This document shows, in pieces, positions 12,543 to 31,797 of a DNA stretch of 64,000 nt. A model generated the notes under the pieces. That model searched no databases. It saw nothing but the letters and a program-made list of their open reading frames with translations, and was not told the origin of the DNA. Source of the stretch: Motilibacter deserti. Lineage in GTDB: Bacteria; Actinomycetota; Actinomycetes; Motilibacterales; Motilibacteraceae. How positions within the stretch are numbered: position 1 is the stretch's first letter; each line of letters starts with the position of its first letter. The stretch spans positions 1 to 64,000 of the forward strand of contig NZ_JAANNP010000002.1 of the NCBI RefSeq assembly GCF_011250635.1. Reading direction: 5' to 3'. Both the position numbers and the translations under genes were made by a program.

Positions 12543-12602
12543 GGCTTGTGCAAGGAGCGGCAGCGGAACCGCCGTTCACCCGGGCGGGACGGAGGAGCTG
12601 GC

Positions 12603-15600
12603 GTGGTCTTTCGACCGCGGGATCTCGTACGCCGGGCCCCGTCGCTCGCCTCGTCCCTGCGGGCGGGGCTGTTCACGGGGCTGGTGACGGGGGCCGCGCG
12701 CTTCGCGCGGCCCGCCCCCGACATCGAGGACGTCCTCGCCAGCAGCCCGCTCGGGTTCGCGACCTTCGACCGCAAGCTCCGGTTCCAGCGGATCAACCCG
12801 CTGCTCGCCGCGATGAACGGGCATCCCGTCGAGGCCCACCTCGGGCGCACGCCCATGGAGCTGCTGCCGGACATCGACCCGGCGCAGTACCTCCCGATGA
12901 TCGACGCCGCCTTCGCCGGCGAGGTGTCGCCGCCGCTGCGCATCGAGGGCGAGACGCCGGCCGCCCCGGGGCACCGCTACTGGGAGGAGCGGTTCTACCC
13001 GATCTACGACCGCCGGCGCCGCGTCGTCGGCGTCGGCGCCATCGTCGCCGACGTCACGGTGCGCGTGCAGGCCGAGGAGGCGCTGCGCCGCCAGGAGGCG
13101 ACGGCGCAGCTGATCCTGGAGTCGGCGCCCAACGGGATGCTGCTGGTGGATGCCGATGGGACGATCGTCGCGATCAACCCAGCCGCCGAGCGAGTGTTCG
13201 GGTACGCCCACGGCGAGCTCGTCGGCCAGCTGGTCGACGTGCTGCTCCCGAACCCCGACGCGGTCGACCACCCGGCGCTGCGCCGCCAGTTCCTCGTCGA
13301 CCCCGAGACCCGCCTGATGGGCCACGGGCGCGACCTCGCTGCCCGGCGCAAGGACGGCACGCAGTTTCCCGTCGAGGTCGGCCTCGCCGTCGCGGAGGGC
13401 GCGCCGGGCCTGGTGATCTGCGTCGTCACCGACATCTCCGGCCGCAAGCGCGCCGAGGCGGAGGCCGAGCAGTTGCTGGCCTCCGAGCGGGCCGCCCGCG
13501 AGCGCCTCGCCCGGCTGCAGAGCATCACCGAGGCCAGCCTCGCGCAGCTCCCGCTCGACGACCTGCTGCACGAGATGCTCGACCGCGTCGTGCAGGTCCT
13601 CGGCGCCAACAGCGGCTCGGTCCTGCTCGTCGACGACACCGGCGCTCAGCTCGTGGTGCGCGCGACGCACGGCATGCCGGAGCCGGAGGGGGAGGACCGG
13701 TCGATGCCGGTCGGCGTCGGGGTCGGCGGCCGGGTGGCGCGCGACGCCCAGCCCGTGATCGTCCCGGACCTGGGCGCCCCCGGGGACGCGGCGTCACCGA
13801 CCTACCGCCCGACCATGCAGCTCGCCGGCCTGCGCAGCCTGATCGCGGTCCCCCTCGTCGTCGAGGGCAAGGTCGTGGGCGTGCTCACGGTCGCGTCGAG
13901 CGAGCCGGGCAAGTTCGGCTCCGACGACCTGCAGTTGCTGCAGCCTGCCGCCGACCGGGTAGCTCTGGCGGTCGACCGGGCGCGCGCGTTCGAGCGGGAG
14001 CGCGGGATCGCGGAGGCGCTGCAGCGCAGCCTGCTTCCCGAGCGGCTGCCGGCCGTTCCCGGCGGCGCCGTCGCGGCCCGCTACTTCCCCGGCACGAGTG
14101 GGATGCAGGTCGGCGGCGACTGGTACGACGTGCTCGAGCTGCCGGACGGGGAGGTCCTCCTCGTCATCGGCGACGTCATGGGCCGCGGCGTACGGGCGGC
14201 GTCGGTCATGGGCAACCTGCGCAACGCGGTGCGGATCTACGTCCAGATGGGGCTGCCGCTCGCCGAGGTCGCCGCCCGGCTCAACGAGGCCGTGCTCGCG
14301 ATGGGCGAGGACGAGATGGCGACGCTGCTGCTCGCGGCGGTGGACCCCGGCTCCGGGAAGGTGCGCGCGGTGAGCGCCGGGCACGTACCCCCTGTCGTGC
14401 GGGACCCCGGCGGCGGCGCGCGGCTGCTCGGGGTCGAGCCGGGGGTGGTCCTCGGAGCGCAGCCGGACGCCCGCTACGAGGCCACCGAGCTGCAGATCGA
14501 GCTGGGGGCGAGCCTGCTCGTCTACACCGACGGGCTGATCGAGCGGTCCGACGTGCCCATCACGGACGGGCTGGACGACCTGGTGCACGCGATGGCGACT
14601 GCGCCGGGCGACCCCGGCGCCGGCTGCGACGCGCTGGTCGCCCGCTTCCTGCCGCCGGGCAGCTCGACCGACGACGTCGCCATGCTGTGGCTGCAGCTCT
14701 ACCCGGCACCGCTGTGGGCGGCGGTGCAGATGCCGCTGCCCAACGACGCGGACGGCGTCGCCGCGGTGCGGGCGGAGGTGCGGTCCTGGATGCAGCGGTG
14801 GGGAGCCGACGAGGACGAGACGGGCGACATGCTCGTCGCCGTCAGCGAGGCCTGCGCGGTGACCTCGCCTCCACAGGACCCGGCCCTCGGCGAGCTGCGG
14901 CTCTCGCTCTTCGAGGACCGGGTGGAGGCGACGGTCCGCACGGCCGCGCCGGTCGCCCTGCCGCCGGGCAGCACCGACCTCGGGCGCGGGCTCGTCCTGC
15001 TGGCCGCCACCAGCGACTCGTTCACCGTCGAGCGCTCGCCGACCGGCGAGGAGGTCCGCGTCGTACGCCGGCTGGGCGCCCCGCTGTTGCCGCACGCCGC
15101 GGTCGCCGCGGAGCGCGAGCGCGGGCTGCGCGTCGACCCCACGGCGGCGTCGGTGCCGCTGTGCCGGCACTACGTGCGCGAGCGGTTGCGCCACAGCCCG
15201 AGCGACCTCGCCGACCGGGCCGAGCTCTGCGTGTCGGAGCTCGTGACCAACGCGGTCGTGCACGCCGCGACGGCCATCGAGGTCATCGTCGAGCCACTGG
15301 ACTCCCGCGTGCGGCTCGAGGTGCGCGACCACAGCCCGGCGCTGCCGCGCCGCCTCGTGCACAGCGAGCGGGCCGCCACCGGCCGCGGCCTGGACCTGGT
15401 CGCGACGCTGTCCGAGGCCTGGGGCGTGCTCCGCGTCGATCCCCGGACGAAGGCCGTGTGGTGCCAGCTCGGCGCGCAGGCCGAGGAGCCCGAGCTGGAC
15501 GCGGACGCGCTCCTCGCCGCGTGGGCGGACGAGGAGTGGCCCGAGGAGTGGCCGGCCGAGCCGGTGGCGGGCACGGCGGCGGCCGACGGTGAGCTCGTGC

Positions 15601-16031
15601 TGTGCGGCTACCCGGTCGCCCTCGGGGCGCGGCTGCGCGAGCACGTCGAGGCGCTGCTGCGCGAGTGCCTGCTGCTGAGCGGCGACGAGGCGGGCGACGA
15701 CGCCGGCAACGACCCGGGGCTGGGACGGCTGGCGACGGCGCTGCGCAGGTCGCACGAGGACGTCCTGCTCCCGATCGAGGGGCAGCGGCTCGCGGCGGCG
15801 CAGCAGGGCGAGGACGACGTCGACGTGAGGCTGCACGCGGCCCTGCGGTCGTCCCGCTTCGACGAGTGGGAGGGGCAGCTGCGCGAGCTGGACACGCGGG
15901 CGGCGAGCGGCGAGCTGCTCACGCCGGTGGCGCCCGCTGACGTCGCGGCCCTCTTCCGGTGGATCGGGGACGAGCTCGGCGGCCAGGCCGCGGGGCGGAC
16001 CCCGCAGCGATGGCCCGGGCCGGTCGGATGA
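12603..16031 (+). CDS. multidomain PAS-PAS-GAF-PP2C (SpoIIE/RsbU) phosphatase with two GHKL ATPase modules
   Basis: A 1142-residue signalling protein of the partner-switching type that controls anti-anti-sigma factors. In order: PAS-like (about 40-150), PAS (about 165-282, [11 protein letters not shown]), GAF (about 305-463), PP2C/SpoIIE phosphatase (about 470-700, with [33 protein letters not shown]) and two GHKL ATPase modules (about 705-825 and 840-958). The second ATPase is canonical ([18 protein letters not shown]). The first has lost the N-box Asn (SEACAVTSP) but keeps DLGRGL. The last ~150 residues form an unrecognised acidic helical tail. GTG 12603 has GGAGGAG 5 nt upstream. No STAS-domain partner lies nearby. 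Confidence 0.9.
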
Positions 16032-29943: not shown

Positions 29944-31797
29944 TCAGCGCGCCCGGGCCTCCGGGCCTGACCTGCGGACCGGGCGCGGCCGGTCCTCCGG
30001 GTGCGCCCGCAGGGCGACGAGGGCGATGTCGTCGTCGGCCCCGGGAGCCAGCTCCGCGAGCAGCGCCTCGCAGAGCAGCTCCAGCGGCAGGGAGTGCAGC
30101 CGGCGTACGGCCTCGGCCAGCCGCTCCAGCCCCACGTCGAGCGCCTCGCCGCGCCGCTCGACGAGCCCGTCGGTGTAGAGGACCACGGTCGACCCGGGCG
30201 CGAGCGTGACCGAGTAGTCCGCCCGTGGCACGTCAGGGGCGAGCCCGAGCAGCAGGTCGGCCGGGCGCTCGAGCACGCTGACCTCGCCCGTCGCCTCCGC
30301 GAGCAGCGGCGGCGGGTGCCCGGCGTTGGACCAGCGCAGCGTACGCAGCCCGGCCCTGCGCTCCTCGAGCGTCTGCTCGACCCGGGCGACCACCGCGGTG
30401 GCGAGCGCGTCGAGCCCGAGCTGGCGGACGGCGCCGTCCAGCGTCGTCAGCAGCCCGGCGGGGGTGTAGCTCCCGGCGAAGGCGATGCCGCGCAGCAGGT
30501 TGCGCAGCTGCCCCATGGCGGCGGCCGCCGTCCGGTCGTGCCCCGTGACGTCACCGATGGCGAGGGTGGTCGTGCCGTCGGGGGAGAGGAACGCGTCGTA
30601 CCAGTCGCCACCGACCTGCGCCTCCTGCGCGGCCGGCAGGTAGCGGACGGCGATCTCGAGGTGGTCCGGCTGCGGCGGGTCGGTGAGCAGCGAGCGCTGC
30701 AGCGTCTCCGCCAGGCTGCGGGTCGCCTTCGCCTGCTGCCGCTCGGCCTGCAGCCGCGTGACGCGGTCGACGGCCTGCGCGCACTGCGCGGCGAAGGCGT
30801 GCAGCAGCCGGACGTCGTCCTGGTCGAAGGCCTGCGGCTGCCGCCACCCGAGCGCCAGCGAGCCGAGCAGCTGGTCGCCGGCGCGCAGCGGCAGCACCGC
30901 CCACGCCTCGAGCTCGGGTGCAGGCGACATGTGCACGGCGTCGTCGCCGTAGCGCTCACGCAGCTCGGCCCGGTCGTGGACGATCACGGCCTCGCCACGG
31001 GCGGCGGTGCCGATGGGCATGTGGGTGTCGAGCGGCAACGGCTCGCCGCGGGAGTACGCCCGGTCGCCCGAGCTGTCCGTCACGGTCAGGTCGAGGGCCT
31101 TCCCACGGCGCAGGGCGACGACCGCCGTGTCCGCCCCCACCGTCGGCCGGCCGTGCTCGAAGAGCCGGGCCAGGACGTCCTCCAGCGTCTCCGCCCCGGC
31201 CAGCGCGGAGGCGGTGAGCGCCAGCCCGGCCAGTCGCAGCGCGGTCTGCCGCTCCCGCTCGTTGGCGGCCCGCAGCGCGGCGTTGGACCCCTCGAGCTCC
31301 CTGGTGCGGGCGAAGAGGTCGGACTCGACCTGCTCCACCCGCTCCCGCCACTGCTGGCCCCGGGCGGCCTCGTCACGCACGCGCACGTAGTCGGTGATGT
31401 CGTCCGACCGGTGCAGCAGCAGCGCGACGTTGCCGTCCTCGTCGAGGATCGGGACGTTGCGCGGGCTCCAGTAGCGCTCCTCGTAGCTCCCGTCCGGCAT
31501 CGGGATGTCGTACTTCTGGATCGGCATCGTCACCGGCTGCTTGGTGTCCCGCGCGCGGGCGAGGGATGCGCTGAGGTTGCGCAGCCCGTCGGCGGCGGGG
31601 TCGTCCGGGTTCATCGGGAAGACGTCGAAGAGGTTGCGGCCGACCGTCCCCTCGAGCGTGGTGGCGGTGGCCTCCAGCCGGGCCCGGTTCGCGTGGACGA
31701 TCACGAAGTCGGGCGTGAGCAGCAGGAAGGGCGCCGGCGCCTCGTCGAACACCTTCGCGAAGTCGGGCGTCGGCAGCGCGCTGGGCTCCTGCCTCAC
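29944..31797 (-). CDS. PAS-GAF-PP2C (SpoIIE/RsbU) serine phosphatase
   Basis: A 617-residue soluble signalling phosphatase of the partner-switching type. It has an N-terminal PAS domain (about 10-125, FAKVFDEAPAPFLLLTPDF), a short coiled linker, GAF (about 165-320) and PP2C/SpoIIE (about 350-600, with [53 protein letters not shown], and DDDIALVALR). Unlike the large protein at 12.6 kb it has no ATPase module. GTG 31797 is the most likely start; the sequence upstream in frame looks non-coding. It ends 8 bp from convergent dapE. The phospho-substrate is presumably an STAS-domain protein elsewhere. Confidence 0.88.
   Translation of the reverse strand: MRQEPSALPTPDFAKVFDEAPAPFLLLTPDFVIVHANRARLEATATTLEGTVGRNLFDVFPMNPDDPAADGLRNLSASLARARDTKQPVTMPIQKYDIPMPDGSYEERYWSPRNVPILDEDGNVALLLHRSDDITDYVRVRDEAARGQQWRERVEQVESDLFARTRELEGSNAALRAANERERQTALRLAGLALTASALAGAETLEDVLARLFEHGRPTVGADTAVVALRRGKALDLTVTDSSGDRAYSRGEPLPLDTHMPIGTAARGEAVIVHDRAELRERYGDDAVHMSPAPELEAWAVLPLRAGDQLLGSLALGWRQPQAFDQDDVRLLHAFAAQCAQAVDRVTRLQAERQQAKATRSLAETLQRSLLTDPPQPDHLEIAVRYLPAAQEAQVGGDWYDAFLSPDGTTTLAIGDVTGHDRTAAAAMGQLRNLLRGIAFAGSYTPAGLLTTLDGAVRQLGLDALATAVVARVEQTLEERRAGLRTLRWSNAGHPPPLLAEATGEVSVLERPADLLLGLAPDVPRADYSVTLAPGSTVVLYTDGLVERRGEALDVGLERLAEAVRRLHSLPLELLCEALLAELAPGADDDIALVALRAHPEDRPRPVRRSGPEARAR

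Follow-up and report, generated by a model that had tools for sequence, protein, structure and literature searches.

A sensor phosphatase of Motilibacter deserti with a degenerate RsbW-type module and an intact GHKL ATPase in tandem after its PP2C domain

The window analysed here is the stretch of 64,000 nucleotides at positions 1 to 64,000 of the forward strand of contig NZ_JAANNP010000002.1 from Motilibacter deserti (C234:1-64000 in our numbering), and our subject is a gene within it for a sensor phosphatase of 1142 residues. In this protein a SpoIIE-type PP2C domain is followed by two RsbW-type ATPase modules in tandem, GHKL1, which has lost several residues of its nucleotide site, and GHKL2, whose motifs are intact, and then by a C-terminal domain (CTD). 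The reading we favour, to which we give roughly an even chance of being right, is that GHKL1 has no catalytic role and instead binds a STAS protein or a sigma factor and/or signals to the phosphatase, and that GHKL2 and the CTD form the nucleotide-dependent kinase/anti-sigma-type part of a stress-sigma partner-switching regulator. It is based on the architecture, the fold, the motif loss, losses mostly shared with an orthologue and selection, all of them observed; from these we infer every binding and catalytic step. The features of the gene are as follows.

12591-12595, + strand: GGAGG, likely ribosome-binding site of GTG 12603, 7 nt upstream of it (sequence reading)
12603-16031, + strand: sensor phosphatase gene, PAS-PAS-GAF-PP2C-GHKL1(degenerate)-GHKL2-CTD, 1142 residues (open frame, Pfam)
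12735-13067, + strand: PAS domain 1, residues 45-155 (Pfam PAS_4)
13107-13436, + strand: PAS domain 2, residues 169-278 (Pfam PAS)
13548-13976, + strand: GAF domain, residues 316-458 (Pfam GAF_2/GAF)
14142-14696, + strand: SpoIIE-type PP2C phosphatase domain, residues 514-698 (Pfam SpoIIE, E 8.4e-45)
14715-15077, + strand: GHKL1, RsbW-type module with lost nucleotide motifs, residues 705-825 (Pfam, AlphaFold2, Foldseek, alignments)
14844-14861, + strand: degenerate N-box SEACAV, residues 748-753, with Glu749 kept and Asn absent (alignments)
14937-14951, + strand: degenerate G1 box RTAAP, residues 779-783, with Asp replaced by Thr780 and Gly by Ala782, against Thr and Gly in the orthologue (alignments)
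14976-14993, + strand: retained G2 box DLGRGL, residues 792-797 (alignments)
15123-15482, + strand: GHKL2, ATPase module with intact motifs, residues 841-960 (Pfam, structure search)
15237-15251, + strand: GHKL2 N-box ELVTN (sequence reading)
15588-16028, + strand: CTD, residues 996-1142, recurrent domain with neither a Pfam nor an NCBIfam match (profile scans, AlphaFold2)

Scanned alone (residues 702-831), GHKL1 reached 44.3 bits against HATPase_c_2 (E 2.2e-11), GHKL2 alone (15084-15480) reached 40.4 bits and the GHKL1 of the orthologue 41.2 bits, against a curated Pfam cut-off of 27.4 bits, in agreement with an earlier note on this DNA that had read two GHKL-like modules after the phosphatase. 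The AlphaFold2 model of residues 702-831, computed with 30 other sequences, has a mean predicted local distance difference test score (pLDDT) of 86, a predicted template modelling score (pTM) of 0.80 and the secondary-structure order E-H-H-E-E-H-E-E; residues 81-90 of the modelled piece, around the G1 box and the lid, have a pLDDT of 60, and the lid region is short. Its top Protein Data Bank (PDB) matches in Foldseek were RsbW 6m37 (E 6.9e-9), 8jzt, SpoIIAB, UsfX 8ih8 and the RsbW domain of Rv1364c (3ke6). GHKL1 is thus predicted to have a true RsbW/SpoIIAB-type fold, contrary to the lack of a GHKL fold in residues 705-825 that the note had named as a result that would refute it.

The nucleotide site of this fold has degenerated further than the note had claimed, extending from the N-box (SEACAVTSP, without Asn) to G1 and G3. 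According to PMC10345196, Asn50 of SpoIIAB chelates Mg, Glu46 is the catalytic base, His54, Gly55, Thr99, Gly107, Gly109 and Thr130 surround the nucleotide, and Arg20 lies close to the SpoIIAA site and contacts sigma. We aligned GHKL1 with SpoIIAB, RsbW and 28 other homologues (loci L099-L126) from a GHKL1-profile search that did not require the Asn; these are the best-scoring ones, among which degenerate relatives may be under-represented. The N-box Asn is present in 28/28 of them and lost in GHKL1, where Val753 or a gap takes its place, depending on the alignment. Also lost are the N-box His (present in 25/28), the G1 Asp (now Thr780) and Gly (now Ala782), and the G3 Thr (now Glu816), each of the last three being invariant in the 28. 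By contrast with these losses, the equivalents of Arg20 (R723) and Glu46 (E749) and both G2 glycines (G794/G796, corresponding to G107/G109 of SpoIIAB) are kept, as in every one of the 28, and DLGRGL stands as the note had stated. A second set, the best 30 of 79 matched domains from a contig scan, agrees with the retention of the partner-site Arg and catalytic Glu (30/30) and has the His and G1 Asp throughout (30/30); its N-box Asn (30/30) was built into the scan pattern, which contained TNA, and is not used as evidence. GHKL1 is therefore most likely unable to hold Mg-ATP, and the earlier description of it as a probable pseudo-kinase is borne out at the level of motifs.

An orthologue, 82% identical overall, occurs in one of the four other genomes of the family, that of a member of the same genus (G001), where it adjoins the same ferredoxin gene. 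Its sequence includes [10 protein letters not shown] as well as [12 protein letters not shown], and it agrees with GHKL1 at four of the lost sites, those of the Asn, the His, the G1 Asp (Thr in both) and the G3 Thr (Glu in both); the two species do not differ in EACAVTSPP or in [12 protein letters not shown], though they do in the G1 stretch RTAAPVA. The same EACAVTSPP in the sister species and the continuous frame rule out a frameshift or sequencing error behind the odd N-box. As to homologues with an intact N-box, which the earlier note had named as evidence that would go against it, the protein of the same architecture lacks the Asn too, and it is the homologous domains of other proteins that possess it. 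Since the orthologue lacks the Asn while all 28 domains elsewhere have it, the residue was probably lost in this lineage. The ratio of nonsynonymous to synonymous substitution rates (dN/dS; Nei-Gojobori, G001 pair) is 0.21 for GHKL1 (bootstrap 0.12-0.35), against 0.20 for PAS1, 0.12 for PAS2, 0.11 for GAF, 0.24 for PP2C, 0.27 for GHKL2 and 0.31 for the CTD; a single species pair was compared and third positions in the gene have 97% G+C, which makes the absolute values rough, and the comparison between domains is what matters. The identity of GHKL1 between the species is 81%, the same as that of GHKL2. GHKL1 is under purifying selection, and its maintenance despite the lost ATP-site residues suggests that it serves for docking or control and no longer as an enzyme.

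The tandem arrangement is rare. With a GHKL1 profile and at most 10 candidates scored per genome, strong matches (E <1e-80) in 393 sampled genomes of the class were confined to this gene and its orthologue, the next best being 2.5e-11. A GHKL1-GHKL2-CTD profile run on 396 genomes of the phylum (E 1e-15, at most 4 candidates scored per genome, G001 not being among the genomes with a listed match) gave, besides this gene, no match beginning before model position 130; the matches from position 130 or later correspond to GHKL2 with or without the CTD. Among 37 related open reading frames (ORFs) the tandem was found in two, this gene and the orthologue, and 18 others have one GHKL after the PP2C; of the rest, one lacks the PP2C, one has only a GHKL fragment before it and 15 have no GHKL match, some of them perhaps because the locus ends. 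Half of the 28 GHKL1 homologues (14/28) form the last part of long ORFs that contain PP2C motifs, and the chain stops 118-142 residues past the start of the match, which leaves no second module there. In three of the 18 (L005, L033, L035) a histidine-kinase-type ATPase precedes the PP2C and an RsbW-type ATPase follows it; two GHKL domains per chain are thus not unique, but the tandem after PP2C was not seen elsewhere. Three Nocardioides candidates (L144, L156, L169), whose matches begin at about query residues 68-76, were rejected as tandems when the GHKL profile gave one domain each; in L156 and L169 a GAF-like stretch, judged by eye, lies ahead of the single GHKL. Within the M. deserti genome, GHKL1 and GHKL2 are the only pair in one frame among 43 HATPase_c_2 matches, and no PP2C protein with two GHKL modules appears among the literature titles listed, which is not proof of absence.

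Loss of the N-box Asn is known from other RsbW-type proteins. That of UsfX reads DEVCTRL, without Asn (alignment to 8ih8), and the Foldseek matches include solved UsfX-type complexes, 8ih8 with RsfB and 8jzt, which is SigF/anti-sigma. In PMC7693655, M. smegmatis RsbW1 is described as binding SigF, RsbW2 alone as phosphorylating RsfB, RsbW1 and RsbW3 as clustering with anti-sigma factors that lack kinase activity, and RsbW3 as binding and thereby antagonising RsbW1. An RsbW fold without the N-box Asn can thus work as a partner-binding protein. Of 26 HATPase_c_2 matches read in the M. deserti genome, three lack the Asn (GHKL1, the EACSR protein L207 and L232, with ELVSD), while L230 (NLLSNA) and L231 (NLVVNA) do possess it. 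The EACSR protein, on contig C8 (L207; L249:519-1034), is 57 nt away from a STAS match and is possibly BldG/ApgA-like. The RsbW adjoining the genome's SigB/F/G sigma gene (L247:439-984, contig C232) likewise has an N-box without Asn, DEACAMLLP. The same type of motif, with the G2 box also gone, was found in 17 of 21 loci (L247, L250-L264, L266), and 16 of these 17 have a sigma gene downstream by a crude motif flag; the 21, namely 20 fetched loci and L247, were picked mainly because their GHKL1-profile match did not extend past the first 90 positions and are a chosen set, not a sample.

The sigma-adjacent RsbW prompted us to ask whether GHKL1 belongs to the anti-SigF clade. A tree of 57 rows places it elsewhere, among other RsbW-type domains, with three PP2C-fused RsbW domains nearest by path and a long stem (2.08), and outside the 17-row anti-SigF clade (branch 99/87); a joint clade is not formally rejected by the approximately unbiased test (p 0.104). 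We consider a separate loss in a PP2C-fused RsbW probable, with moderate confidence. A recent duplication of GHKL2 is not supported as the origin of GHKL1, given that pairwise BLASTP found no significant match (best E 2.2) and that the two modules are separated on the tree.

GHKL2 contains [10 protein letters not shown] and TGRGLDLV, and its model aligns with UsfX (8ih8_C; Z 15.6, root-mean-square deviation (rmsd) 2.2, 113 aligned) and SpoIIAB (1th8_A; Z 15.3, rmsd 3.0, 119 aligned), the rows of the structure search for the model of residues 695-1142 covering almost only model residues 144-265. The mutual arrangement of the domains in that model (mean pLDDT 76.6, pTM 0.53) is not to be interpreted. 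GHKL2 is accordingly predicted to be a GHKL ATPase with an intact N-box Asn and fold, as had been claimed of the second module; that it would be active and GHKL1 inactive is suggested by the motifs only.

The last ~150 residues, said in the note to match nothing, do recur. The CTD piece (15480-16028) has no Pfam match up to E 1 and no NCBIfam match, but residues 992-1142 find matches at E 1e-3 or better in 44/197 sampled genomes of the class, M. deserti included, several of them in ORFs of <210 aa. In the family proteins read, the CTD follows a GHKL2-type ATPase alone (L003, L040, L043) or after a PP2C-like part (L047, L048), and the same pair stands before a GAF-PP2C part in L045, L058 and L062, the PP2C and GAF of these proteins being recognised by eye. 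The phylum sample adds seven genomes outside the class with GHKL2-into-CTD matches (G638, G643, G628, G521, G404, G418, G742). AlphaFold2 predicts a beta-alpha-alpha-beta-alpha-alpha order with block pLDDT values of 83-94 and one block at 61. The CTD would be an unnamed domain accompanying anti-sigma-like ATPases of Actinomycetota, and it merits a family model of its own.

The rest of the chain fits a sensor phosphatase, in line with the earlier listing of two PAS domains, a GAF, a phosphatase and two ATPase-type modules: on the full protein Pfam places PAS_4, PAS, GAF, SpoIIE/PP2C and two HATPase_c_2 domains above their cut-offs. The top PDB matches by sequence for the second PAS region are FixL PAS domains. 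The PP2C domain fits the SpoIIE/RsbU-type profile and has GGDWYD, GDVMGRG, YTDGL and STDD in its translation, which we take to be the acidic metal-site motifs. Beginning with GTG 12603, the frame runs uninterrupted for 1142 codons, its stop lying at 16031, and it is already open upstream from TTG 12546; the GTG was chosen, and is likely to be the start codon, because of the GGAGG ahead of it.

The best PDB sequence match of the protein is the PP2C-RsbW part of Rv1364c (3ke6, E 2.7e-28), with which residues 482-750, the PP2C and the start of GHKL1, align as a single continuous stretch. Rv1364c of M. tuberculosis (PAS-PP2C-RsbW-STAS) has a PAS sensor, a PP2C and an RsbW-type module in the identical order. 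Unlike it, the present protein has lost the nucleotide motifs of this module and continues with GHKL2 and the CTD. Rv1364c is said, in the title of one reference, to have lost kinase activity, and elsewhere reportedly phosphorylates its own STAS; we draw nothing from either. At its C-terminus it has a STAS domain on which it acts itself (PMC9138534), whereas no STAS appears among the Pfam matches of our chain up to E 1. Another M. deserti protein (L248:58-2342, contig C6) is of the PP2C-RsbW kind, with the N-box EAVAN, and has a STAS gene immediately after it in a different frame, which looks like an Rv1364c-like set split over two genes. UsfX and RsbW1 share the fold of GHKL1 and UsfX also its lack of the Asn, but they are stand-alone proteins beside a sigma gene, and the related actinobacterial proteins read here also lack the G2 box that GHKL1 retains. 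PP2C proteins that end in an RsbW-type ATPase are common in Actinomycetota; the order sensors-PP2C-GHKL is shared by the 18 and 14 such proteins described above, which differ in having one GHKL after the PP2C, with its Asn in 18/18 and 14/14. Proteins of the GHKL2-CTD type, stand-alone or fused, such as L003 of the same genome (40% identity over both domains), have the same ATPase and CTD and, as far as read, no degenerate GHKL ahead of them. The sensor phosphatase, which has so far been seen in a single genus, is most likely a variant of the partner-switching regulators of the Rv1364c kind.

The gene follows genes for a PIG-L deacetylase (8402), an FtsH-like protease (9423), DUF6113 (11536) and a flavin reductase (11965), and precedes a ferredoxin (16195) and an aminotransferase (16516). 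In another genome of the family, G003 (L239), no phosphatase separates the ferredoxin from a flavin-reductase-like frame (by eye) that stops 90 nt ahead of it, a likely empty site; since the two genes are directly side by side there, the phosphatase gene was probably either acquired by this genus or lost from G003. At the corresponding site G002 and G004 have different sequence. The window holds a second PP2C-type protein (29992-31281, - strand), 34% identical to the sensor phosphatase over residues 289-703. Neither a STAS match nor a match to the SigBFG profile was found within the window, and the idea that the chain is a self-contained switch, put forward in the note, fails on this and on the absence of a STAS from the chain. 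The search for STAS-domain partners that it suggested found 13 matches in the genome, none of them within the window, and one SigB/F/G sigma above cut-off.

We propose that the two PAS domains and the GAF control the PP2C, which would dephosphorylate a STAS anti-anti-sigma protein encoded by another gene, as in RsbU/RsbV/RsbW partner switching (PMC7340262 and PMC12143880). GHKL1 would hold the STAS protein or a sigma factor beside the phosphatase without catalysis, in the manner in which UsfX binds its partners, and might additionally or instead relay a conformational signal to the phosphatase; GHKL2 and the CTD would be the nucleotide-dependent kinase/anti-sigma-type part at the end of the chain. 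GHKL1 is read as a docking or control module because its Mg- and adenine-site residues are gone and the Arg and Glu of its partner face are kept. Several observations weigh against this proposal: the orthologue retains the G1 Gly, so that this loss is not conserved; the orthologous group amounts to two sequences in all; the tree leaves GHKL1 outside the anti-SigF clade, although a joint clade is not rejected; the sigma-contacting Lys41 of SpoIIAB is Leu in GHKL1, although Lys occurs in 0/28 of the homologues as well; and the gene lies in a housekeeping stretch with no STAS or SigBFG gene adjoining it.

Among the alternatives, the one with the best prospects, which we nevertheless consider unlikely, is that GHKL1 binds neither sigma nor STAS and acts purely within the molecule, packing on the PP2C and switching it. 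GHKL1 stands directly after the PP2C, as in Rv1364c, and the purifying selection is compatible with a structural role. RsbT is itself a GHKL protein. In favour of this alternative, RsbT as a separate protein activates the phosphatase RsbU via the RsbU linker (PMC12143880). Against it, RsbT works on the N-terminal domain and the linker before the PP2C, not on the C-terminal side, and the partner-site Arg and Glu retained in GHKL1 would be unneeded for a purely structural role. It is less probable still that GHKL1 is no pseudo-enzyme and binds nucleotide in an unorthodox manner: the G2 glycines and the catalytic Glu are there, the orthologue has the G1 Gly, and UsfX, also without Asn, is the subject of a paper whose title announces novel nucleotide binding and hydrolysis. 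However, four positions of the nucleotide site, those of the Asn, the His, the G1 Asp and the G3 Thr, hold other residues in both species, as does a fifth in M. deserti, and the lid region is short and modelled with low confidence. That GHKL1 is a functionless vestige of a former kinase in the course of being lost accounts for the missing catalytic positions, yet we regard it as very improbable in view of the upper bound of 0.35 on its dN/dS, a ratio no worse than in the neighbouring domains, and of an identity between species equal to that of GHKL2, with EACAVTSPP unchanged, although the RTAAPVA stretch differs.

Returning to the docking or control reading, RsbW-type proteins work as dimers, and a speculative extension of it, which we think has a small chance of being correct, is that GHKL1, as the dead half holding sigma or STAS at the phosphatase, and GHKL2-CTD, as the live, nucleotide-dependent half, form an asymmetric pseudo-dimer within one chain whose state is set by PAS and GAF. 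If this were true, kinase, phosphatase and partner-binding surface would be fixed in one assembly. Multi-domain PP2C regulators and kinase-negative RsbW proteins are already known; what the M. deserti protein adds is an RsbW-type module that is under constraint and probably ATP-dead and stands in the same chain as a phosphatase and an intact ATPase, an arrangement in which partner binding may be separable from catalysis within one protein.

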